Origin: Aquisalimonas lutea
GTDB lineage: Bacteria > Pseudomonadota > Gammaproteobacteria > Nitrococcales > Aquisalimonadaceae
DNA: 64,000 nt
NCBI RefSeq assembly: GCF_030409225.1
Contig: NZ_JAUFPK010000001.1
Span: 864,191 to 928,190, forward strand
Direction of reading: 5' to 3'
Part shown: one piece after another, positions 44,054-55,988 of the stretch
How positions within the stretch are numbered: position 1 is the first letter of the stretch
Layout of the letters: the number at the start of each line of letters is the position of its first letter
Notes under the pieces: generated by a model
Told to the model about the DNA's origin: nothing
Databases searched by the model: none
Seen by the model: only the letters and a program-made list of their open reading frames with translations
Program-made: the position numbers and the translations under genes

Positions 44054-45271
44054 ATGAGCGAGGTGTTCGTCGCCCGCCAGCCCGTGTTCAACCGGGACCT
44101 CCGCCTGTTCGGCTATGAGCTGCTGTTCCGCGCGACGGCGGAAGCCGAATCCGCCGACGTCAGCGATGACGAAGCCGCCACCCGCGACGTGCTGAGCAAC
44201 GCGCTCACCGTCATCGGGCTGGAGCGCCTGGTCGGGCGGTACCCGGCAATGGTTAACATGGGGGCGGAGTCGCTAGTGCGCGAGGCGCAGCAGCGCACGC
44301 TGCCCGCCGCCAGAATCGTCCTCGAGGTGCTGGAGACCGTGCCGGCGTCGCAGGATGTGATGCGGGCGCTCCGGGATCTGCGCCGGGCCGGCTTCCGGAT
44401 CTGCCTGGACGACTTCGAGCCGGAGCCGGAGGCACTCCCCCTGCTGGAGTATGCCGACATCGTGAAACTGGAGGTGGAGGGGCGCAGTGCCCGCTCCCTC
44501 GCCCGTACCCTGGAGCAGATCAAGCGCCCGGGCATCCGCTTTCTCGCGGAGAAGATCGCGAGCCAGGACCAGTTCCGCGATTGCCTGGATCTGGGTTTCC
44601 ATTATTTCCAGGGGTATTTCCTCAGCCGGCCCCGGACCGTTCGCGGCGCCGCGGTGCCGGCGAGCCGGCTGCCCACGGTCCGCCTGCTGGCTGCCATTCA
44701 GCAGCCTGAGCTGGAAGTGGCCGAGCTGGAGCGGATCATCGGCACCGACGTCGGCCTCAGCTACCGTCTGCTCCGGTACATGAACTCCGCCTACTACCAG
44801 CTCCAGAAGCCGCTGGATTCCATCCGGCAGGCCATTCTCTACCTGGGGCTCAACGAGCTCCGCCGCTGGGCGTCGCTCATGGCCATTGCGGCGGTGGATG
44901 ACAAGCCGGCGGAGCTCATCGGGGTGCTCACCGTGCGGGCGCGCATGTGCGAGCTTGTGGGGCGCGAGATCCATGGCGGCAATGGCGATACGTACTTTAC
45001 CGTGGGGTTGTTCTCCGGCCTGGATGCGGTTCTCGACATGCCCCTGCGGGAGGTGGTCGCGGAACTGCCGCTGAGCCGCGAGGTCCACCGTGCGTTGCTG
45101 GAGCGTACCGGCGCGGCCGGAGAGGTGCTCGACTGCGTCCTGCATTACGAGGCCGGCGACTGGGAATGGCTGGAGCTGCGGGAGGACATTCCCGGCGCCA
45201 CGCTGATTCAGTGTTACCTGGACGCCATTGAATGGTCGCGCACGGTACTGGAACAGTATCCCCAGCCATGA
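44054..45271 (+). CDS. EAL-HDOD signalling protein (YuxH type), likely non-catalytic
   Basis: This 405-residue protein has an N-terminal EAL-like domain (about 1-200) and a C-terminal HDOD domain (about 205-400). In the EAL part the signature reads YELLFR at 21-26, and the segment that is DDFGTG in active phosphodiesterases reads DDFEPEPE. Catalytic metal ligands therefore look incomplete. Such proteins bind cyclic-di-GMP or act as adaptors. The HDOD part (LEVAELERIIGTDVGLSYRL, RQAILYLGLNELRRW) lacks the His-Asp pair of HD hydrolases, as is usual. It lies 28 bp upstream of the ABC-transporter genes on the same strand, which may tie them to c-di-GMP or surface behaviour. Confidence 0.9.
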   Translation: MSEVFVARQPVFNRDLRLFGYELLFRATAEAESADVSDDEAATRDVLSNALTVIGLERLVGRYPAMVNMGAESLVREAQQRTLPAARIVLEVLETVPASQDVMRALRDLRRAGFRICLDDFEPEPEALPLLEYADIVKLEVEGRSARSLARTLEQIKRPGIRFLAEKIASQDQFRDCLDLGFHYFQGYFLSRPRTVRGAAVPASRLPTVRLLAAIQQPELEVAELERIIGTDVGLSYRLLRYMNSAYYQLQKPLDSIRQAILYLGLNELRRWASLMAIAAVDDKPAELIGVLTVRARMCELVGREIHGGNGDTYFTVGLFSGLDAVLDMPLREVVAELPLSREVHRALLERTGAAGEVLDCVLHYEAGDWEWLELREDIPGATLIQCYLDAIEWSRTVLEQYPQP

Positions 45272-45299
45272 ACCGAGCGGATGGTTCAGCGGAATGCGC

Positions 45300-46232
45300 A
45301 TGACAGCGGAAGTGCTACTGGAAACGACGGGCCTGGCGCGTGCGTTCGGCCCACATGCAGCGGTACGCGGCATCGATCTGCGCGTCGGCCGCGGTGAGTG
45401 CCTTGCCCTGCTGGGCCTGAACGGGGCCGGCAAGACCACGACGCTGGAGATGCTCTGCGGCGTGCTGGCACCCGGGGCCGGCACGATCCGCGTGGCCGGC
45501 CACGATCTGCTGGCGGAACCGCGGGCCGCCCGGCAGTGCCTCGGGTACCTGCCGGAGACCCCGCCGCTGCAGCCGGATGCCCGGGTGATCGACTATCTGC
45601 ACTGGGCCGCCGTGGTGCGGCGGATCCCGCGGTCGCGGCGCCGCCACCTGGTCGAGCGGACCCTGGAGCGCTGCTGCCTGGGCGGCGTGCGCCGGCGCGT
45701 GATACGCAATCTCTCCCGCGGCTACCAGCAACGCCTGGGCATCGCCCAGGCGATCGTGCACCAGCCGCCCCTGGTCGTCCTCGATGAGCCCACGGTCGGG
45801 CTCGATCCCCGCCAGGTGCAGGGCGTTCGTGCCCTGATCGGGGATCTGCGCCGTGACCACGGGGTCATCCTGTCCACCCACGTGCTGGCGGACGTGGAGG
45901 CGGCCTGCGACCGCGTGGCCATCCTCCATGACGGCCGGATCATCCATGAGCAGGCGGTGGCACCAGCCGCGGACGGCGATCGTCGCTACCGCCTGCGCTT
46001 TGACCGGCCGCCGCGTCCGGACGCGGTGCAGGCGCTCGACGGGGTGCTGGCCGCCGAGGCGGAAGGCGAGCAATCCCTGCGCGTCGTGGTCCGGGACGAG
46101 GCCGCACTGGACGGCATTGTCGCGCAGGCGGCCCACGGCGGCTGGCGACTGCGGGAGCTCGCGCGCGAGGTGCGCACGCTGGAGCAGGTGTTCCTGGCCT
46201 GCACCGCGCCGCGGCCGGAGGAGGCCGCATGA
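45300..46232 (+). CDS. ABC transporter ATP-binding protein (GldA-like)
   Basis: This 310-residue ATPase has Walker A GLNGAGKTT (39-47), the signature LSRGYQQR (138-145), Walker B LVVLDEPT (158-165) and the H-loop STHVLADVE. It is of the DrrA/GldA/NodI class whose permeases move lipids, polysaccharides or drugs, or serve gliding. The start is taken at ATG 45300 behind CGGA; another ATG is 2 codons upstream. It overlaps the permease gene by 4 bp (ATGA) and begins the four-gene transporter unit. Confidence 0.93.
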   Translation: MTAEVLLETTGLARAFGPHAAVRGIDLRVGRGECLALLGLNGAGKTTTLEMLCGVLAPGAGTIRVAGHDLLAEPRAARQCLGYLPETPPLQPDARVIDYLHWAAVVRRIPRSRRRHLVERTLERCCLGGVRRRVIRNLSRGYQQRLGIAQAIVHQPPLVVLDEPTVGLDPRQVQGVRALIGDLRRDHGVILSTHVLADVEAACDRVAILHDGRIIHEQAVAPAADGDRRYRLRFDRPPRPDAVQALDGVLAAEAEGEQSLRVVVRDEAALDGIVAQAAHGGWRLRELAREVRTLEQVFLACTAPRPEEAA

Positions 46233-46993
46233 TCGCGCTGCGCCTGGCCGGCCGCGAGCTGCGCACGCTGTTCGCCGCCCCGCTGCCCTGGCTGCTGCTG
46301 GCCCTCGGCCAGGTCGTCGGCGCCTGGTGGTTCCTGACGCTGGTGGAGCGTTTCCGCGGCCAGTACCAGGCGGTGCTGCAGCAGACCAACAGCCCCCTCG
46401 GGGTTACCGACCTGGTGGTGGCGCCGTTCTTCGGCAGCTACGTGCTCCTGGGCGTGCTGCTGCTGGCGGCGGCATTGCTGGCCATGCGGCTGCTGGCCGA
46501 GGAGCGCCGCAGCGGCAGCCTGCGGCTGCTGTTCGCGGCGCCGCTGGCGGTCACCGAGATCGTCCTGGGCAAGTACCTGGCGGCGCTGGCCTACCTGCTC
46601 GTGTTCCTGGCGGGCTGGCTGTTCATGCCGCTGGGCCTGCTTGCCGGCACGGAGCTGGACCTGGGGCGCCTGGCCGCGGCGGCGCTGGCGCTGGGGCTGG
46701 TGGCGGCCGCCATGGCCAGCGTGGCCCTGTTCGCCTCCAGCCTGGTCGCACAGCCCGCCGTCGCCGTGGTGCTCACCGCCGGCGTCCTGCTCGCCCTGCT
46801 CGGCCTGGACACTGCCCTCGGTAGCGGCGACCCGGTGATCGCCTACCTGGCGGTGCTGCCGCACTACGAGGGCCTGGTCCAGGGCCGGGTGGTGTCCACC
46901 GACGCACTGTACTTCCTGCTGCTGACCGCGGGCTTTCTCGGCTTCACCATCCGGCGCCTGGACGGCCTGCGCTGGCACGGGACCGGGGTCTGA
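46229..46993 (+). CDS. ABC transporter permease (GldF-like)
   Basis: This 254-residue membrane protein has about six hydrophobic segments. It carries the family stretch RLLAEERRSGSLRLLFAAPL, which links the ATPase to the membrane part, followed by TEIVLGKYLAALAYLLVFL. It belongs to the ABC-2 type permeases (GldF group). Translation is coupled to the ATPase, and it is followed 12 bp later by the GldG-like gene. The transported substrate is unknown. Confidence 0.9.
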   Translation: MIALRLAGRELRTLFAAPLPWLLLALGQVVGAWWFLTLVERFRGQYQAVLQQTNSPLGVTDLVVAPFFGSYVLLGVLLLAAALLAMRLLAEERRSGSLRLLFAAPLAVTEIVLGKYLAALAYLLVFLAGWLFMPLGLLAGTELDLGRLAAAALALGLVAAAMASVALFASSLVAQPAVAVVLTAGVLLALLGLDTALGSGDPVIAYLAVLPHYEGLVQGRVVSTDALYFLLLTAGFLGFTIRRLDGLRWHGTGV

Positions 46994-47005
46994 GGGCATG
47001 GTGAC

Positions 47006-48349
47006 ATGAACCGGCGCACGCGATTGGGACTGCATCTCAACAGCATCATGGCCGGCGTCGCCCTGCTGGTGGTCCTGGCCCTGCTGGCGTGGCTGAGCGC
47101 CCGGTATCCCGTCGCCGCCGAATGGTCCACCACCGGGCGGGGCGAGCTTGCCGAGGCCAGCATTACGGCAGTGAATCGCCTCCAGGGCGGCGTCGAGGTG
47201 GTCGCCTTCGTGCGTCCGGATGATGTCCTGGCACGCCACGCCCGGCGTCTGGTGGCGCGCTACCAGCGGCACCACCCGCAGATGCGGCTGCGCCTGGTGG
47301 ATCCGGGGGTGCGGCCGGAGCTGGCGCGGGAGTTCGGCGTCCAGAGCGAAGGGGCCCTGGTGGTTTCGTACCAGGGCCGCCACGAGCAGGCCCGGGTGCC
47401 CACGGAGCCCCGGCTGACGGCGGCCCTGGGCCGTCTCCTGGCGGGCGGCGAGCGCACCGTGGTCTATCCCGTGGCGCACGGTGAGCGGGATCTCGCCGGG
47501 GAGGCCAACCGGGATCTCGGACGTTTCGGCGACTCGCTCGAGGAGCAGGGCTATAGCCTGCGCGCCGTGGACGCGCTGGCGAGCGGCGTTCCCGGGAGCG
47601 CGTCGCTGCTGGTTGTCGCCGGGCCTCGGGCGAACTGGTCGGAGGCCGCGCGCACCTCGGTCAGGGACTGGCTGGAGCGCGGCGGCGATCTGCTGTGGCT
47701 GGTCGATGACGAGGACCGGCAGCGGCTGGATTTCCTGGCCCAGACCCTGGGCGTGCGCATTCTCCCGGGGCGCGTCGTGGAACCCCGGGCGGAGGAGCTG
47801 CTGGGCGTGGACAACCCCCGTCTCCTGGCGCTGGGGGACTACCCGGCCCATCCGGCGCTGCAGGGTGTACAGGGCGTCTCCCTGTTTCCGGGTGTGCGGG
47901 CACTGGAGACCACGGGTTCCGGAGTTGACTGGGAGTCCCGGGTGCTGCTGCGCAGCGACGAGCGCCACTGGCAGGAGCGCCAGAACCCCGATGACCCGGT
48001 GTTCGATGCCGATGCCGGCGAGCGGCGCGGGCCCCTGGACCTGGGCCTGAGCCTGAGCCGCCCCCGCGCGGACGGCGGCGAGCAGCGCGTCGTGGTGCTC
48101 GGCGACGCGGACTTCCTCGCCAACGCCTATCTCGGCAACGGCGCCAACGACAAGCTCGGCCGGGCGCTGGTCGACTGGCTTACGTCCGGAGGCGAGATCG
48201 CCGAGGTGCCGGGGCCGGCGGTGCCGGATCAGACCCTGGCCCTGGGGCGCGGGCAGATGATCGCCCTGGGGGCGATCTGGCTGGTGCTGCTGCCGGGAAT
48301 CTGGCTGGCCGGGGCCTGCTGGGCCTGGTGGCGGCGGCTGCGGGGCTGA
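47006..48349 (+). CDS. GldG-like ABC-associated periplasmic protein (ABC_transp_aux)
   Basis: This 447-residue protein has a membrane segment near residues 14-33 and another at the C-terminus (about 414-440, WLVLLPGIWLAGACW). A large periplasmic domain lies between them. The periplasmic part contains a first domain rich in Arg and Gln and a second with VVAGPRANWSEAARTSVRDWL and VVLGDADFLANAYLGNGAND, the pattern of the DUF4350/GldG type. It accompanies GldA/GldF-like transporters and has no known enzymatic role. It sits between the permease and the DUF4340 gene. Confidence 0.88.
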   Translation: MNRRTRLGLHLNSIMAGVALLVVLALLAWLSARYPVAAEWSTTGRGELAEASITAVNRLQGGVEVVAFVRPDDVLARHARRLVARYQRHHPQMRLRLVDPGVRPELAREFGVQSEGALVVSYQGRHEQARVPTEPRLTAALGRLLAGGERTVVYPVAHGERDLAGEANRDLGRFGDSLEEQGYSLRAVDALASGVPGSASLLVVAGPRANWSEAARTSVRDWLERGGDLLWLVDDEDRQRLDFLAQTLGVRILPGRVVEPRAEELLGVDNPRLLALGDYPAHPALQGVQGVSLFPGVRALETTGSGVDWESRVLLRSDERHWQERQNPDDPVFDADAGERRGPLDLGLSLSRPRADGGEQRVVVLGDADFLANAYLGNGANDKLGRALVDWLTSGGEIAEVPGPAVPDQTLALGRGQMIALGAIWLVLLPGIWLAGACWAWWRRLRG

Positions 48350-48353
48350 GCCG

Positions 48354-49190
48354 ATGCGGCGGCGGTTGCTGATCAATCTGGTCATGGTCCTGATTGCCGC
48401 GGCGCTGGCTGCATTCGCCTGGCTGGATGCGCGTCGCGACGGCGGCCCGTCCCGCCTGACCGCGCTCGACGCCGACGCCGTGGACGTGATCCGCCTGCAG
48501 CGGCACGACCGCGACGACGTGCGCATGGAACGCCGCCCCCAGGGCTGGTGGCTCACAGAGCCCGTGGAAGCCCGGGCCAGCGATTTCCACGTCCGGCAGG
48601 TGCTCGCCCTGGCGGATCTCCGCAGCCGCGCGCAGTATACGACCCGCGAGGTGGACCCGGACGAGGCGGGGCTGACCCCGCCGCGGGCGCACGTCACCCT
48701 GGACGGTACCGGCATCCGCCTGGGCGCGCAGGATCCGGTGGACGACGGCCTGCGGTATGCGATGGTGGGTGAGCGGGTGCACCTCGTCCGCAACCGCGTC
48801 ATGCCGCTGGTCAGCGGCCCGTGGTGGAACTTTCTCGATCGCCACGTGCTGGGTGAAGGCCGCGAGGCCGCCGCCCTGGTCACGGAGGCGCTGGAAGTGC
48901 GCCGCGAGGAGGCAGGGTGGCGGGTAGTGCGCGGCGATCTTGATCCCGCCGCGGCCGGGGCGCTGATGGCGGCCTGGCAGGAGCTGGAAGCCCTGGTGGT
49001 CCGCCCCCTCGAGACGGCCCCCGATGGCGGCCAGGGCGCGCGCGTGATCTTCGCCGACGGCGGCGAGAGGCGTTTCATCGCCGGGCAGGCGGACGGCGAG
49101 GTGCGACTCGTCGACGTCGAAGCGCAGCGCGCCTATGTGCTCAACGAGGACGTCCGGCGCTACCTGCTGACCGGAAGGGAGACGGACTAG
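48354..49190 (+). CDS. DUF4340-domain protein, last gene of the Gld-like unit
   Basis: This 278-residue protein has an N-terminal membrane anchor (about 3-22, LLINLVMVLIAAALAAFAWL) and an outward domain of the DUF4340 type. It contains IRLQRHDRDDVRMERRPQGW, LTPPRAHVTLDGTGIRLGAQ and YAMVGERVHLVRNRV. Function is unknown in the family. It is consistently found beside GldG-like proteins. It begins 4 bp after the GldG-like stop, so the four genes 45300-49190 are one operon. Confidence 0.85.
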   Translation: MRRRLLINLVMVLIAAALAAFAWLDARRDGGPSRLTALDADAVDVIRLQRHDRDDVRMERRPQGWWLTEPVEARASDFHVRQVLALADLRSRAQYTTREVDPDEAGLTPPRAHVTLDGTGIRLGAQDPVDDGLRYAMVGERVHLVRNRVMPLVSGPWWNFLDRHVLGEGREAAALVTEALEVRREEAGWRVVRGDLDPAAAGALMAAWQELEALVVRPLETAPDGGQGARVIFADGGERRFIAGQADGEVRLVDVEAQRAYVLNEDVRRYLLTGRETD

Positions 49191-49252: not shown

Positions 49253-50068
49253 ATGCCGGAGCTTCCGGAAGTCGAGACCACCCGCCGCGGGATCGCCCCG
49301 CTGATCGCCGGGGCCGAGGTGGTCGACGCCGTCGTCCGCGACCATCGGCTGCGCTGGCCCGTTCCCGGCGATCTCGCGGCACAGGTCCGGGGACGCAGCG
49401 TGCGCGGCGTCGACCGTCGGGCCAAGTACCTGCTCGTGCGGCTGGATGACCGCACCCTGATCATCCACCTGGGCATGTCCGGCAGCCTGCAGCTGGTGCC
49501 CGCCGGCCGCGAAAGCGGGCGCCACGATCACGTCGATGTCGTGTTCTCCGGCGGGCGGGTGCTGCGCTACACCGATCCGCGGCGCTTCGGCAGCTTCCAC
49601 GTGACCGCGGGTGACGCCGCCGATCATCCCCTTCTCGCCCGGCTCGGCCCGGAACCCCTGGAGCCGGCGTTCACGGGCGACTGGCTCCACCGCCGGTCGC
49701 GCGGGCGCAGGCAGGCCGTCAAGGCGTTCATCATGGACGCGGCGACGGTGGTGGGCGTCGGCAACATCTATGCCGCGGAGGCCCTGTTCCGCGCCGGGAT
49801 CCACCCGGCCCGCGCCGCCGGGCGCATCGGTTCTGCACGCTACCGGCGGCTGGCCGAGGCCGTCCGGCAGGTGCTCAGCGACGCCATCACCGCCGGTGGC
49901 ACGACCTTGCGGGATTTTGTCGACGGCGACGGACGCCCGGGGTACTTCCGGCAGTCCCTGTACGTCTATGGCCGTGCCGGAGCGCCCTGCCCGGCCTGCG
50001 GACGCCCTTTGCGGCTGATCCGGGTAGGCCAGCGGAGCACCTGCTACTGCAGCCGCTGCCAGCGGTAG
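49253..50068 (+). CDS. mutM: formamidopyrimidine-DNA glycosylase
   Basis: MutM removes 8-oxoguanine and formamidopyrimidines from DNA and nicks the strand. The 271-residue protein begins MPELPEVETTRRGI, with the catalytic Pro2-Glu3 N-terminus after Met removal. Lys58 (in RRAKYLL) and VVGVGNIYAAEALFRAGI of the helix-two-turns-helix are present. It ends in a zinc finger: CPACGRPLRLI and STCYCSRCQR. It starts 62 bp after the DUF4340 gene, so it may be transcribed with that unit. Confidence 0.97.
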   Translation: MPELPEVETTRRGIAPLIAGAEVVDAVVRDHRLRWPVPGDLAAQVRGRSVRGVDRRAKYLLVRLDDRTLIIHLGMSGSLQLVPAGRESGRHDHVDVVFSGGRVLRYTDPRRFGSFHVTAGDAADHPLLARLGPEPLEPAFTGDWLHRRSRGRRQAVKAFIMDAATVVGVGNIYAAEALFRAGIHPARAAGRIGSARYRRLAEAVRQVLSDAITAGGTTLRDFVDGDGRPGYFRQSLYVYGRAGAPCPACGRPLRLIRVGQRSTCYCSRCQR

Positions 50069-50259
50069 CCGGCGCCCGGCGCGCTTGCGGCAGGCCCACG
50101 GGGTGCTGCGGGCCGGATCATTCCAGGATTTCGAAGGGCCCTGTGATCCATGCCACAGTACCCGTGCGCGCAACCGGCGTAGCCTGGGGGATCGGACGGG
50201 TCCCGCGGCAGCGCCCTGCGCCCGGGACGACAGGATCATGGTCGAGGAGTCGGGGTGTC

Positions 50260-50934
50260 ATGGCACTATTCGGCAGTGGCGGCAAGCAGAAGAAGCGGCG
50301 TGCCGGCGGAACCACCATCATCGCCGCGGGAACGACGTTCACGGGCGAGCTCTATCCGGAAGGGAATCTGCACATCGATGGCCGCCTCGAGGGGCAGATC
50401 GACTCCTCGAGCGATGTCTCCGTGGGCGCGGACGGCAGCTTCGAGGGCGAAATCCGTGCGCACCGGATGGTGGTGAGCGGGTTCGTCCGCGGCCGCGTCG
50501 AGTGCGACAGCCTGGAGATCGTGGACAACGGCCGCGTCCTCGGTGAGGTCGCCAGCCGGCGCTTCGTCATCGAGCCGGGCGGGCAGTTCGTGGGCGAGAG
50601 CCGTTCCACCGACGAGGAGTCGGTGGCCCAGCTGAGCCACTGGCGCGAGGGCGCCGCCGGCAGCAGGCCCGCGGCGCGCGGCGGTGCCGAGCCCGCAGCG
50701 GCGGAGCCGGCGGCGGCCGTCGACACGGTGCCCGAGCCGGATCCGGTGCCGGACGTCGAGCCGGATCTGGACGGCGACGAGGAGCCGCTGTTCGCTTCCC
50801 TGGATGACGCGGCCGGGGATGATGCGGCGGTGGAGCCGCATCAGGACGATCACGAGCCCACGATCCCGGTGGAGCGCGACGAGCCCGATACCGGGCGGGG
50901 CTGGGCCGCGCAGAACGACCGAAGGTGGCGATAA
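50260..50934 (+). CDS. bactofilin
   Basis: This 224-residue protein contains a bactofilin domain (about 18-125), the beta-helical repeat that polymerises without nucleotide. Its pattern is TTIIAAGTTFTGELYPEGN, LHIDGRLEGQIDSSSDVSVG, FEGEIRAHRMVVSGFVRGRV and VLGEVASRRFVIEPGG. A basic N-terminus (GSGGKQKKRRAGG) could bind membrane or DNA. The last 90 residues are Pro/Glu/Asp-rich (VPEPDPVPDVEPDLDGDEEP) and disordered. The start at 50260 follows a weak GGAG; an open frame extends 39 codons upstream without similarity. It precedes an actin-like gene by 114 bp. Confidence 0.88.
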   Translation: MALFGSGGKQKKRRAGGTTIIAAGTTFTGELYPEGNLHIDGRLEGQIDSSSDVSVGADGSFEGEIRAHRMVVSGFVRGRVECDSLEIVDNGRVLGEVASRRFVIEPGGQFVGESRSTDEESVAQLSHWREGAAGSRPAARGGAEPAAAEPAAAVDTVPEPDPVPDVEPDLDGDEEPLFASLDDAAGDDAAVEPHQDDHEPTIPVERDEPDTGRGWAAQNDRRWR

Positions 50935-50962
50935 GGGTCTGAGACGGTTACGATCAGGGGCA

Positions 50963-50976
50963 CGACCGATCGGTCG
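50963..50976. promoter_or_regulatory. 14-bp perfect palindrome between the bactofilin and actin-like genes
   Basis: CGACCGATCGGTCG is self-complementary and lies 73 bp upstream of the actin-like start, in the 114-bp gap. It could be a repressor operator or a binding site for a DNA-linked adaptor of the filament. It resembles the half site in the efflux-operon palindrome at 4997-5012. Confidence 0.4.
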
Positions 50977-51048
50977 CGCGGGGCTGGCAGCCTGCGGTCG
51001 GGATCGAGGGCGCGTCAAACGGAAGCAGAGAAGTCAGGGGGTAGCGCT

Positions 51049-52185
51049 GTGGAACGCATAATCGGACTCGATATGGGATACGGTTTCGTCAAGGCCAACG
51101 ATGGCCGCGACGGCGTCCGTTTCCCCAGTGTGGTCGGCGATGGGAGCGGCGGAGGCCCCATGTCGCTCGGTTTCCAGAAACCGGAGCCGACCAGCGACAT
51201 TCGCATCACCGTGGGTGGCAAGACGTACTTCCTGGGGGATCTCGCCATCCGGCATTCCCGCATCGCCCACCGGGGCCTGTCGGCGACCCGCGCCGAGGGC
51301 GACGATCTCCGGATCCTCTTTCTCGGGGCCCTGAGCATGTTCTCCCGGGAGTCCATGAACGACTTCCAGGTGGTCACCGGGCTGCCGCCCGGGCGCATGC
51401 ATCTCGCCGACGATCTCGTCTCGCGGCTGCGCGGCGATCACACGGTCACCCGGCACGTGGGCCGCAACCGCCAGGACCTCAGCATCCGTCTGGAGCAGAT
51501 CGAGGTCGTGCCCCAGCCCTTGGGGACGTTCTGGGCCGAGGTCCTGGACAGCCGCGGACAGCTGCGCGGCGACTCCCGCCTGCTGCACGGGCGGGTCGGC
51601 ATCATCGACGTCGGGTTCCGTACCACGGACTTCGCCACCATCGTCGAGGGCGAGTATGCGCCGGCCTGGAGCCGTACCGTGCCCCTGGGCATCTCCACCG
51701 GCTACGACGCGCTGGCGTCGGCCCTGGCCACGCAGTACGGCCTCGAGCGCGAGACCTACACCCTGGACCAGGCGGTGATCGAGGGCGAGATCAACGTCTC
51801 CGGCCGGCGGGTGGATATCACGGACCTGCGGGACCAGATCCTGGGCGAGGTGGCCACCAAGCTCATGGTCGAGCTGCAGTCCCTGTGGCAGCTGGCGGAC
51901 TACGACGCCGTGCTGCTCACCGGCGGCGGCGCCCACGTGCTGGAGCGCTACCTGCGGCCGCAGGTGCCGCAGAGCATCGTGGTCAACGACCCGGTGACCG
52001 CCAACGCCCGCGGCTACGTGGCCTGGGGCACGTTCCAGAGCCAGGACGCCCAGCCGGAAGCCCAGACCACCACCGGGGCCGGCTTCAGCAGCGACGCCGC
52101 GAACCAGGCGGCCGGGAGCGGGTTCGACCAGACCGCCCAGGGGTCGGGCGAGCGGGCGGCCGGCGATTCCTATCGCGAGCAGTAA
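51049..52185 (+). CDS. actin-like ATPase, ParM/StbA (ALP) family, chromosomal
   Basis: This 378-residue protein has the actin-fold nucleotide motifs: phosphate-1 IIGLDMGYGFVKA (4-16), phosphate-2 GIIDVGFRTTDF (184-195) and the adenosine motif VLLTGGGAHVL (288-298). The GFRTTDF variant is typical of ParM/StbA and archaeal Alp proteins rather than MreB or DnaK. The last about 48 residues are Gln/Ala/Gly/Ser-rich and probably disordered. The start is GTG 51049 behind AGGGGG. Such proteins usually segregate plasmids with an adaptor and centromere; none is seen here, and the flanks are chromosomal. Pairing with the bactofilin suggests a cell-shape or positioning role, which is inference. Confidence 0.85.
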   Translation: MERIIGLDMGYGFVKANDGRDGVRFPSVVGDGSGGGPMSLGFQKPEPTSDIRITVGGKTYFLGDLAIRHSRIAHRGLSATRAEGDDLRILFLGALSMFSRESMNDFQVVTGLPPGRMHLADDLVSRLRGDHTVTRHVGRNRQDLSIRLEQIEVVPQPLGTFWAEVLDSRGQLRGDSRLLHGRVGIIDVGFRTTDFATIVEGEYAPAWSRTVPLGISTGYDALASALATQYGLERETYTLDQAVIEGEINVSGRRVDITDLRDQILGEVATKLMVELQSLWQLADYDAVLLTGGGAHVLERYLRPQVPQSIVVNDPVTANARGYVAWGTFQSQDAQPEAQTTTGAGFSSDAANQAAGSGFDQTAQGSGERAAGDSYREQ

Positions 52186-52193
52186 GGCCGATG

Positions 52194-52220
52194 TCGTGCT
52201 GCCGGCTCCCGGCAGCACGA
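52194..52220. terminator. 12-bp perfect hairpin between convergent genes
   Basis: TCGTGCTGCCGG and CCGGCAGCACGA are exact complements around a CTC loop, 9 bp past the actin-like gene stop and before the convergent comM. No T-run follows on either strand, so classical intrinsic termination is uncertain. It may act as a bidirectional end structure. Confidence 0.5.
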
Positions 52221-52270
52221 CACCACGACCGGTTCCCTCCCACCCGCTGTGGGAATGGATCAGCGTCTCC

Positions 52271-53767
52271 TTAGCGGCGTAACAGACGCCGGTAGGTCAG
52301 CGCCTCGCCCAGGTGCTGGACGTCGACCCGTGGCTTGCCCGCCAGATCCGCGATGGTGCGCGCCACGCGCAGCAGGCGGTGATAGGCCCGGGCGGACATT
52401 CCCAGGCGCTCCAGGGCATCCGTGAGAAACCGCCGCTCGGCACCACCCAGGCCGCAGCAGGCCTCCAGGGCGTCCGGGGACAGCGAGGCGGCGGGCGCGC
52501 CGCTGTCGTTCATGCGGGCCTCGCGCGCGCGGGCGACCCGTCGCCGCACCTCCCCCGAGGCCTCACCGCCGGTGTGCTCCTGAAGCTCCTCGGGACGCAG
52601 GCGGGGGACTTCCACCAGCAGGTCGAGGCGGTCCAGCAGTGGCCCGGAAATGCGCCCGTGGTAGCGCGCGATCTGGTCCGGAGTGCACTGGCAGGCATGC
52701 ACCGGGTCGCCCAGGTAGCCGCAGGGGCAGGGGTTCATCGCCGCCACGAGCTGGAAGCGGGCCGGGAACTCCACCTGGGCGGAGGCCCGGGAGATGCTCA
52801 CCCGACCCGTCTCCAGCGGCTCGCGCAGGACCTCCAGCGCCTGGCGCCCGAACTCCGGTAGCTCGTCCAGGAACAGCACGCCGTTGTGGGCCAGGGAGAT
52901 CTCGCCCGGGCGCGGCCGGCTGCCGCCGCCGGTCAGGGCGACATGGGAGGCGGAGTGATGGGGTGCCCGGAACGGGCGCCGTCCCCAGTCGGCGGCGTCG
53001 AAGCCCGGCCGGGTGAGGGAGGCGACGGCCGCCGTCTCCAGGCTCTCTTCCTCGGTCATGGCAGGCAGTATGCCCGGCAGCCGTTCCGCGAGCATGCTCT
53101 TGCCGGTGCCCGGTGGACCGCTCAGCAGCACGGAGTGCCCGCCGGCGGCGGCGATCTCCAGCGCCCTGCGTGCCCCGGCCTGCCCCCGCACATCCGCCAG
53201 ATCCGGGATGGCCGGCGATGCGGCCGGTGACTCCGCCCGCGCCGGCTCGAGGGTCGTGGTACCGTTCAGGTGCCCGCTGATGTCCAGCAGGTGGCCGATA
53301 CCGAAGCTCCGGTCGGGATGCACCAGCGCCGCCTCCGGGCCGTTCGCCGCGGGTACGGCGAGATCCCGGTCGGCGCGGCGTGCCTGGACGGCGACCGGCA
53401 GGCAGCCGTGGACGGGGCGCAGCTCGCCGCTCAGCGCCAGCTCCCCGGCAAACTCCCAGCCCGGCAGCGCCGCCCGCGGCAGCTGGCCCGAGGCGGCCAG
53501 GATACCCACGGCGATGGGCAGGTCGAAGCGGCCGCCGTCCTTGGGTAGATCGGCGGGGGCGAGGTTGATGGTGATCCGGCGAGTGGGGAACTCGAAGCCG
53601 CTGTTGATGATGGCGCTGCGGACACGGTCGCGGCTTTCCTTCACCGCGGTCTCCGGCAGGCCGACGATGGACACGGAGGGCAGCCCGTTGGCGAGGTGCA
53701 CCTCGATGTTGACCAGCGGGGCCTCGACGCCGAGGCCCGCGCGGCCGTAAACCACTGCAAGTGTCAT
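52271..53767 (-). CDS. comM: YifB/ComM family AAA+ ATPase (Mg-chelatase-like)
   Basis: This 498-residue protein has an N-terminal Lon-protease-like domain (MTLAVVYGRAGLGVEAPLVN, LPSVSIVGLPETAVKESRDR). An AAA+ domain follows with Walker A LLSGPPGTGKSMLAERLPGI (about 215), a zinc-binding-like PCGYLGDP insert, and a C-terminal Mg-chelatase segment. ComM is a hexameric branch-migration helicase that helps natural transformation in some gammaproteobacteria. Competence itself is not shown by this window. The gene faces the actin-like gene, and ubiK lies 36 bp upstream in transcription order. Confidence 0.93.
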   Translation of the reverse strand: MTLAVVYGRAGLGVEAPLVNIEVHLANGLPSVSIVGLPETAVKESRDRVRSAIINSGFEFPTRRITINLAPADLPKDGGRFDLPIAVGILAASGQLPRAALPGWEFAGELALSGELRPVHGCLPVAVQARRADRDLAVPAANGPEAALVHPDRSFGIGHLLDISGHLNGTTTLEPARAESPAASPAIPDLADVRGQAGARRALEIAAAGGHSVLLSGPPGTGKSMLAERLPGILPAMTEEESLETAAVASLTRPGFDAADWGRRPFRAPHHSASHVALTGGGSRPRPGEISLAHNGVLFLDELPEFGRQALEVLREPLETGRVSISRASAQVEFPARFQLVAAMNPCPCGYLGDPVHACQCTPDQIARYHGRISGPLLDRLDLLVEVPRLRPEELQEHTGGEASGEVRRRVARAREARMNDSGAPAASLSPDALEACCGLGGAERRFLTDALERLGMSARAYHRLLRVARTIADLAGKPRVDVQHLGEALTYRRLLRR

Positions 53768-53803: not shown

Positions 53804-54088
53804 TCAGCCTTCGTCGGTGGATGGATCCGTGCCGGCCGCGGTCTCCGGGCCCTTGCCTTCCAGGGCCGCAACCCGCTCCTCCAGGGCCTCGAGTTGTGCC
53901 CGCGTGCGTGCCAGGACCTTGGCCTGGGCGTCGAACTCCTCGCGGGTGACCAGATCCAGGCGATTGAACGTGCTCTGCATCGTCGTGCGGAAGTTGCGCT
54001 CCATCTCCTGCTGGAACTCCCGCAGGCCGGGCGGGAGGTTGGATGCGAACTTGCGCGCCATGTCATCGAGCGATTTCGGATCCAGCAT
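53804..54088 (-). CDS. ubiK: ubiquinone biosynthesis accessory factor UbiK
   Basis: This 94-residue protein begins MLDPKSLDDMARKFASNLPP and has a long amphipathic coiled coil (KVLARTRAQLEALEERVAAL). It belongs to the YqiC/BMFP family now called UbiK, which assists the UbiJ complex in ubiquinone synthesis and may bind membrane. The start at 54088 follows AGGAG. A short Gly/Thr/Asp-rich tail ends the protein. Its upstream side is the NtrC/sigma-54 region of glnK, so the two genes are divergent. Confidence 0.92.
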   Translation of the reverse strand: MLDPKSLDDMARKFASNLPPGLREFQQEMERNFRTTMQSTFNRLDLVTREEFDAQAKVLARTRAQLEALEERVAALEGKGPETAAGTDPSTDEG

Positions 54089-54119
54089 TGTGCACTCCTG
54101 ATGGTGTCGGGGGCGTGAC

Positions 54120-54136
54120 TGCACCTGATTGGTGCG
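54120..54136. promoter_or_regulatory. NtrC binding site
   Basis: TGCACC, five bases, GGTGCG matches the NtrC palindrome TGCACC-N5-GGTGCA in 11 of 12 positions. It stands about 112 bases upstream of the sigma-54 promoter at 54232, a normal enhancer distance. A weaker half site lies at 54091-54106. Confidence 0.8.
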
Positions 54137-54231
54137 TTCTGCGCGGAAACGGTGCAGACGTGTTTCGCGTGCTCCTGGAAGTCTCCCTCCCTGATGAAAT
54201 AAGAACATGAATTAACACGAAAAACAACAAA

Positions 54232-54312: not shown

Positions 54313-54708
<396 letters not shown>

Positions 54709-54743: not shown

Positions 54744-55988
54744 ATGGACCAAGTAATCGAGATCGCGTACGCGCTGGATACCTTCTACTTCCTGATCTCC
54801 GGTGCGCTGGTGATGTGGATGGCCGCCGGCTTCACCATGCTGGAGTCCGGCCTGGTGCGCGCGCGCAACACCACCGAGATCCTGACCAAGAACGTGGCGC
54901 TGTATTCCATCGCCTGCATCATGTATCTGTTCTTCGGTTACCAGATCATGTACGGCGGCTCCGCCAGCAGCATCATCCCCGGGCTGGGTTTCGGCCTGAG
55001 CGTCGAGAACTCGGTTGCGGACGTGGTCAACAGCGGCGGTGACGTCTACTACTCCAACACCTCGGACTTCTTTTTCCAGGTGGTGTTCGTGGCCACTGCC
55101 ATGTCCATCATCTCCGGCGCCGTGGCCGAGCGCATGAAGCTGTGGAGCTTCCTGGCCTTCGCCGTGATCATGACCGGCATCATCTACCCCGTGCAGGGCT
55201 ACTGGAGCTGGGGCGGCGGCTGGCTGGCCGATCTGGGCTATTCCGACTACGCCGGCTCCGGCATCGTGCACATGGCCGGGGCGGCCGCCGCGCTGGCCGG
55301 CGTGCTGGTGCTCGGCCCCCGCAAGGGCAAGTACACCGAGGACGGCAAGGTGCGGGCCATCCCCGGTGCCAACCTGCCGCTGGCCACGCTGGGCACGTTC
55401 GTCCTCTGGCTGGGCTGGTTCGGCTTCAACGGTGGCTCCGAGCTGAAGGTCTCCGACGTGGAGTCCGCCAACGCCGTCGCCCTGGTGTTCACCAACACCA
55501 ACATGGCCGCTGCGGCCGGCCTGGTGGCCTCGATGATTCTCAGCCGTGCCATGTTCGGCAAGACGGACCTGACCATGATCCTCAACGGTGCCCTGGCCGG
55601 TCTGGTGGCCATCACCGCCGGGCCCAACGTGCCCTCGCCCGCGCTCGCCGTACTCATCGGCGCCATCGGCGGCGTGATCGTGGTCTTCTCCATCGTGTTC
55701 CTGGACAAGCTCAAGATCGACGATCCGGTGGGCGCCATCTCAGTGCACGGCACCTGCGGCATCTGGGGAGTTCTCGCGGTGCTGCTGTGGTCTGACGGTG
55801 CCACCATCGGCGGCCAGCTCGCCGGCCTGCTCGGGATCTTCGTCTGGGTGTTCGTCGCCAGCCTGATCGTGTGGCTCATCCTCAAGGCGGTCATGGGCAT
55901 TCGCGTCACCGAGGACGAGGAGGAGCAGGGCCTCGACATCGTCGAGTGCGGCATGGAGGCCTACCCGGAGTTCAACGGCAAGCAGTAA
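54744..55988 (+). CDS. amtB: ammonium transporter AmtB
   Basis: This 414-residue trimeric channel protein has eleven hydrophobic segments. It carries the twin pore histidines His176 (GSGIVHMAGA) and His335 (AISVHGTCGIWG) and the conserved Asp near residue 168 in DLGYSDYAG. It imports ammonium when nitrogen is scarce. It lacks the extra signal peptide of E. coli AmtB and begins directly with the first membrane helix. A strong terminator follows. Confidence 0.97.
   Translation: MDQVIEIAYALDTFYFLISGALVMWMAAGFTMLESGLVRARNTTEILTKNVALYSIACIMYLFFGYQIMYGGSASSIIPGLGFGLSVENSVADVVNSGGDVYYSNTSDFFFQVVFVATAMSIISGAVAERMKLWSFLAFAVIMTGIIYPVQGYWSWGGGWLADLGYSDYAGSGIVHMAGAAAALAGVLVLGPRKGKYTEDGKVRAIPGANLPLATLGTFVLWLGWFGFNGGSELKVSDVESANAVALVFTNTNMAAAAGLVASMILSRAMFGKTDLTMILNGALAGLVAITAGPNVPSPALAVLIGAIGGVIVVFSIVFLDKLKIDDPVGAISVHGTCGIWGVLAVLLWSDGATIGGQLAGLLGIFVWVFVASLIVWLILKAVMGIRVTEDEEEQGLDIVECGMEAYPEFNGKQ

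Follow-up and report, generated by a model that had tools for sequence, protein, structure and literature searches.

Do a bactofilin and a ParM-type actin-like protein (ALP) that are encoded side by side on a bacterial chromosome belong to one cytoskeletal device, or are they neighbors that act apart? The question is raised by positions 50,260 to 52,185 of the window (i.e., the whole 64,000-nucleotide stretch of Aquisalimonas lutea DNA analyzed here), for which a sequence-only reading had proposed that two polymers of different type form a single unit.

The gene pair and its products

The two genes lie on the same strand and in frame, with 114 nt and one stop codon between them. The locus contains the following features.

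50260..50934, + strand: bactofilin (partner bactofilin, BacA type), 224 aa; PF04519, 87 bits (curated cut-off, 27.9 bits)
50260..50301, + strand: hydrophobic/basic bactofilin N terminus, MALFGSGGKQKKRR, resembling the membrane-targeting consensus MFSKKKK
50602..50931, + strand: long acidic C-terminal tail of the bactofilin, extending 110 residues beyond the domain with a net charge of -20, low model confidence
50920..50931, + strand: terminal peptide RRWR, corresponding to the aromatic ending seen in partner bactofilins (tail-end comparison)
51049..52185, + strand: ParM/Alp-type ALP, GTG start, 378 aa; ALP_N, MreB-like_C, phrog_691
51070..51084, + strand: nucleotide motif 1, ALP residues 8 to 12 (D8, G10, and G12 universal in an alignment of 62 ALPs)
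51601..51630, + strand: nucleotide motif 2, IIDVGFRTTD, residues 185 to 194 (D187, G189, T192, and D194 universal in the same alignment)
51922..51930, + strand: adenosine motif GGG, residues 292 to 294 (universal in the same alignment)
52192..52222, no strand: perfect 14-bp hairpin with a 3-nt loop after the ALP gene (arms, 52192 to 52205 and 52209 to 52222), from an inverted-repeat search of 52150 to 52260

The earlier description of these features held throughout: a bactofilin with a basic head and an acidic tail, the 114-bp distance, an actin-fold ATPase with three nucleotide motifs and a disordered tail (model confidence is low after about residue 337), and a perfect hairpin closing the pair were all recovered. 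No T-tract accompanies the hairpin and no intrinsic terminator was scored there, nor was any sigma-70-like promoter scored within 50000 to 52300. The pair is flanked by mutM upstream of the bactofilin gene and by a comM-type Mg-chelatase gene downstream of the ALP gene on the opposite strand; between these flanks, the plus strand of the open reading frame (ORF) list holds, besides the pair, solely overlapping ORFs in other frames. Farther out, 45228 to 49190 encodes the ATPase and permease of an ABC transporter and, after them, two proteins matching ABC_transp_aux/DUF4350 and DUF4340, respectively, and a BMFP (PF04380) gene on the minus strand (53804 to 54208) is followed by genes for a P-II regulator (54370 to 54708) and an ammonium transporter (54744 to 55988).

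Both products were modeled together with AlphaFold2 by translating straight through the two genes, serine being put in place of the stop codons; bactofilin-only rows, which fell on the ALP part, were left out of the alignments. In the model of the window pair, the bactofilin and ALP domains were placed with high confidence and the linkers with low confidence. The beta-helix strands correspond to bactofilin residues 18 to 115 (mostly pLDDT 80 to 96), while pLDDT was below 50 over residues 119 to 161 and 169 to 257 of the joined chain. A bactofilin N terminus with the consensus MFSKKKK is described as targeting the membrane in a published account (PMC12448750), and the resemblance of the window bactofilin to this consensus suggests that it would bind the membrane through its N-terminal peptide.

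The ALP scores above the cut-offs of ALP_N (118 bits) and MreB-like_C (62.5 bits) and matches phrog_691 at 192.8 bits. Its closest solved sequences are Dh-cParM1 (9e-16) and pCBH ParM (4e-15), and a Foldseek search with the ALP model returned pCBH ParM as the top match (6e-21), with the ALP sitting among ParMs and Ta0583. With an actin fold and all three nucleotide motifs, the protein is a member of the ParM/Alp actin-like group; its scores lie below the NCBIfam cut-offs for three narrower families, namely, the plasmid ParM equivalog PRK13917 (NF010498; 88.8 versus 417 bits), the FcmB morphology actin (NF052678; 39.5 versus 300 bits), and PRTRC system protein D (TIGR03739; 78.6 versus 214.8 bits). 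The ALP sequence begins near the first nucleotide motif and lacks an N-terminal extension that could form a membrane helix. Therefore, any membrane link would have to come from another component.

Conservation and origin of the pairing

The two cytoskeletal genes of this locus form a conserved pair with a patchy distribution. A bactofilin gene lies directly beside 42 of the 53 distinct ALPs of the clade to which the window ALP belongs, versus 0 of 77 other ParM relatives (all fetched loci counted once; 63 of these 77 are flanked by 600 nt or more on each side). Clade membership was scored with a profile built from 18 clade members, and the scores do not overlap (lowest clade ALP, 405 bits; highest other ALP, 325 bits). 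Among newly met clade ALPs from genomes outside the profile, 18 of 20 adjoin a bactofilin gene (8 of 9 in a first set and 10 of 11 in a second), and none of 14 newly met second-tier ALPs does (6 in the first set and 8 in the second). The 42 pairs occur in two gene orders: 16 with the bactofilin gene first (Gammaproteobacteria) and 26 with the ALP gene first (Bacillota). Adjacency in many genera, named in the sequence-only reading as the support to look for, is thus borne out in two phyla, and adjacency in one strain only, named there as refutation, is excluded. The 0/77 control, together with the inverted gene order seen in Bacillota, rules out chance or local synteny as its cause.

In the window's own order, 18 of 54 genomes encode a close ALP (E ≤ 1.4e-152), and three more gave weak matches. 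The bactofilin gene is directly upstream in 15 of these 18, at a spacing of 90 to 162 nt if the ALP is taken to start at a conserved V/M-E-R. The pairing has come apart in both directions: mutM abuts the ALP gene with no bactofilin gene between them in three genomes (G005, G016, and G017), and in two others (G009 and G015) mutM and the bactofilin gene are kept and the ALP gene is absent. Beyond this order, the distribution of the clade is patchy. A scan of the class gave E < 1e-180 in 3 of 369 genomes, the window's own included, and the threshold of 1e-90 was passed in three Bacillota samples, which partly re-include genomes already collected, by 5 of 391, 9 of 299 (one second tier), and 23 of 154 genomes (eight second tier). 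The scan of named genomes took 80 of 188 relatives. At nine Bacillota loci, the ALPs are 42 to 53% identical to the window ALP, and at eight of these a bactofilin gene lies directly downstream. None of 56 less similar loci (L088 to L143; some incomplete) has an adjacent bactofilin gene, and two have one 1.4 to 1.9 kb away on the other strand. Two tandem bactofilin genes follow the ALP gene at L083 and L085, the second product being short and nearly tail-less, and one genome (G437) carries two separate ALP-bactofilin pairs (L173 and L178).

A plasmid or phage origin of the ALP clade was considered and rejected, as no close member was met. The highest identity to the window ALP was 30.5% among the best 20 of 1,415 plasmid records (all 1,415 below 60%) and 29% among the best 15 of 64 phage records; one viral contig reached 30%.

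In a tree of 62 ALPs chosen from those collected (a quick method with a midpoint root), all 29 bactofilin-adjacent rows fell within one clade of 39 rows (SH-aLRT, 100), compared with none of the 23 rows outside, and adjacency requires six changes on this tree. The bactofilin tree (65 rows and only 97 columns, with L076 and L077 on long branches) groups 10 gammaproteobacterial partners with 7 gammaproteobacterial bactofilins that have no ALP (support, 99), and the Bacillota group (15 partners together with L164 and L170) forms one side of a branch with a support of 95. Since the gammaproteobacterial partners group with native bactofilins of that class and the Bacillota partners stand apart, the ALP has probably joined two different bactofilins, i.e., the pairing was probably made twice.

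The ALP-bactofilin unit is not obligatory. For 11 of the 53 clade ALPs, no bactofilin gene lies alongside; nine of these 11 genomes (all except G499 and G1237) were searched for bactofilins, and those that were read lacked the terminal motif described below. At the solo locus of G499 (L183), a sporulation YtrH gene directly follows the ALP gene. The gene upstream of two further solo ALPs (L054 and L071) presumably encodes an HD-GYP protein, to judge from its appearance. Three clade-specific ALP residues (R116, W162, and W326) are invariant in all 39 clade rows, 10 of which are solo; since the solo ALPs keep them too, they are not markers of bactofilin binding as such. If the ParM topology is as we assume, W162 and W326 could be lining residues of the ParR-binding cleft.

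The bactofilin tail and the M23 link

Partner bactofilins have long tails (median, 100 residues versus 30 in others) that mostly end in an aromatic motif. By a strict definition, the motif terminates 29 of 32 partners versus 1 of 102 other bactofilins, counts that ignore relatedness, and the lone nonpartner comes from a genome with a clade ALP; by a simple criterion (i.e., one or more F, W, or Y among the six terminal residues), the counts are 29 of 32 versus 7 of 102. The 102 nonpartners are not a random sample, since many of them come from the 60 best-scoring loci, and they include a few weak matches. All 16 distinct gammaproteobacterial partners carry a W among their four terminal residues (RRWR, RRWS, TFWGRR, VWDRR, WSRR, etc.). 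The Bacillota ending is F-x-x-S/T plus a final Y, F, I, or V (e.g., FYSSY, FYTSV, FHSSF, and FINSY) and is present in 13 of 16 partners, the exceptions being L077 to L079, in which the aromatic residues lie farther inward. In 10 gammaproteobacterial and 10 Bacillota tails aligned from their ends (L077 to L079 left out), identity over the last six positions is 36% and 47%, respectively, versus 12% and 8% farther in.

When the strict pattern was defined, the first set of new genomes was already known and the second was still to come; in the second, it matched 4 of 10 ends and the simple criterion matched 8 of 10. A wider pattern, tried afterwards on eight sequences, was dropped as post hoc. Two sister bactofilins at the mutM locus without an ALP (L027 and L035) lack the motif. 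A relatedness-corrected independent-pairs test of adjacency against the motif found three pairs on supported branches and none opposite, an underpowered and nonsignificant result. Elsewhere, the second bactofilin of the window genome (L002, at G000:C1:1914557, outside the window) belongs to another lineage and has a long tail with no aromatic end. Two extra bactofilins of one Bacillota genome that has a clade ALP (L164 and L170 in G431) have no neighboring ALP gene and end in FYESF and LESY; they are possible partners of the ALP in trans.

The gammaproteobacterial bactofilin is also accompanied by an M23 peptidase gene, as in the BacA-LmdC system. An M23-like ORF lies upstream of the bactofilin gene at the four loci read (L011, L012, L014, and L015; the L014 ORF was confirmed with Pfam). 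With the L014 protein as the query, a full-length orthologue was found in 8 of 8 genomes with this bactofilin and 0 of 3 without it (11 of the 54 genomes of the order tested); that of the window genome is unlinked, on contig 11. In G005, G016, and G017, the bactofilin and M23 genes are both gone and the ALP persists. Cooperation of bactofilins with M23 peptidases in wall remodeling, and adjacency of their genes in 226 species, is reported in a published account (PMC10945521). Since the M23 gene is present or absent together with the bactofilin, the ALP of the gammaproteobacterial lineage appears to have been added to an established wall module, without which it can persist.

Joint function and its alternatives

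The circumstantial case for a joint function, built from comparative sequence data, is good. Adjacency in two distant phyla, together with an end piece mostly confined to partners, suggests that two polymers of different kind work together. The earlier claim of one unit thus gains indirect support from the opposite gene orders, the different bactofilin lineages, and the partner-biased aromatic end; the role in shape, polarity, or positioning given to the unit there is a proposal. ALPs also occur alone, and the bactofilin occurs without the ALP in G009 and G015.

How might the two be coupled? We give about even credence to a two-polymer cassette in which the bactofilin tail peptide docks ALP filaments and couples them to wall remodeling. 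The bactofilin would polymerize without nucleotide, its N-terminal peptide holding it at the inner membrane, and the ALP, with no evident membrane anchor of its own, would form ATP-dependent filaments. The bactofilin polymer would present many long flexible tails, and by analogy their aromatic C-terminal peptides could dock the ALP filament, doing for the ALP what the C-terminal peptide of ParR does for ParM. Dynamic actin filaments would thereby be tied to a static membrane patch, which in the gammaproteobacterial lineage would also be tied to the M23 (LmdC-type) wall hydrolase accompanying the bactofilin. The likely output would be local control of wall growth and hence of cell form or polarity.

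Docking by the tail is suggested by the lack of a membrane extension on the ALP, the putative membrane-targeting N terminus of the bactofilin, and the precedent of ParR, the C-terminal peptide of which is named together with ParM in the title of PDB entry 4a62. In the joined-chain models of the window pair and of L084 (43 and 33 alignment rows, few of them paired; confidence blocks read without coordinates), the domains were good and the tail-end peptide had no confident place (block pLDDT, 26 to 33), a weak test that speaks slightly against docking. Because the peptide is unplaced in both models, 11 of 53 ALPs are solo, and the corrected test is underpowered, docking is something that we infer.

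Among the alternatives, one keeps the actin in its familiar trade: the ALP would be a chromosomal ParM-like positioning motor and the bactofilin its landmark or cargo adaptor, with the placing of DNA, a pole, or another body as the output instead of wall growth. ParMs, the chromosomal Dh-cParM1 among them, are the nearest relatives with solved structures; chromosomal ParMs with ParR have been described (PMC12270681); and in 6 of the best 15 phage records the matching protein is annotated as one for partition or plasmid segregation. However, no ParR-like gene was noticed beside the pair in the ORF list, and the gammaproteobacterial bactofilin falls in the M23-linked lineage. We regard this reading as unlikely.

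It is also quite improbable that the genes are neighbors merely through operon inheritance or transfer and that their products act separately. Loss of the pairing in both directions (ALP alone in 11 of 53 cases and bactofilin alone at the mutM locus of G009 and G015) and the small number of independent events are what separate action would predict, but it sits poorly with the opposite gene orders, with an aromatic end in both of two bactofilin lineages, and with the pairing of 18 of 20 newly met ALPs. An ALP acting as an ATP-driven regulator that assembles or dismantles bactofilin polymers (i.e., an energy-dependent switch for a nucleotide-free polymer) would suit the combination of a static partner with a nucleotide-dependent one, a tail-borne flexible motif such as a remodeling factor might use, and the minority status (11/53) of ALPs without a bactofilin neighbor, but the ALP fold best matches filament-forming ParMs, and we consider this role very improbable.

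The two-polymer cassette that we prefer can be set against known systems. With ParMRC and cParMR, it shares the ParM/ALP fold and nucleotide motifs and, as a proposed analogy, an adaptor acting through a C-terminal peptide; it differs in that the constant neighbor of the ALP is a bactofilin, with no ParR gene noticed in the ORF list. With BacA-LmdC, it shares a bactofilin from the M23-linked lineage together with a co-occurring M23 orthologue, and it differs in the added ALP, the long bactofilin tail with its aromatic end, and the unlinked M23 gene of the window genome. CorR of Anabaena is, to our knowledge, not a bactofilin. CorM/CorR (PDB 9rmi) likewise consists of a ParM relative and a partner, and CorM is a weak match to the ALP (2.6e-6; 9.7e-13 by profile). 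The MreB elongasome is likewise a bacterial actin tied to wall growth; the ALP, however, carries Pfam ALP_N and MreB-like_C and not MreB_Mbl, and it has no N-terminal room for a membrane helix. A study of chromosomal ParMs looked for ParR neighbors, and the word bactofilin is absent from its main text (PMC12270681). Titles and abstract openings in the open-license literature (preprints excluded) yielded no pair of a bactofilin and a ParM-type protein.

A more far-reaching version of the cassette is that a membrane-bound bactofilin polymer took over the role of ParR for a chromosomal ParM-type actin, through aromatic C-terminal docking and with at least two origins, each from a separate bactofilin lineage. 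The static and the dynamic polymer would then work as a single machine that steers wall remodeling. We put this forward tentatively, as possible though somewhat doubtful. If true, one cassette would combine two kinds of polymer so far known apart, a scaffold that needs no nucleotide and an actin driven by ATP, and a segregation-type actin would have been recruited to another chromosomal role through a change of adaptor. The pair supplies a candidate partner for long bactofilin tails, and the six terminal residues of the bactofilin tail offer a simple handle on it.
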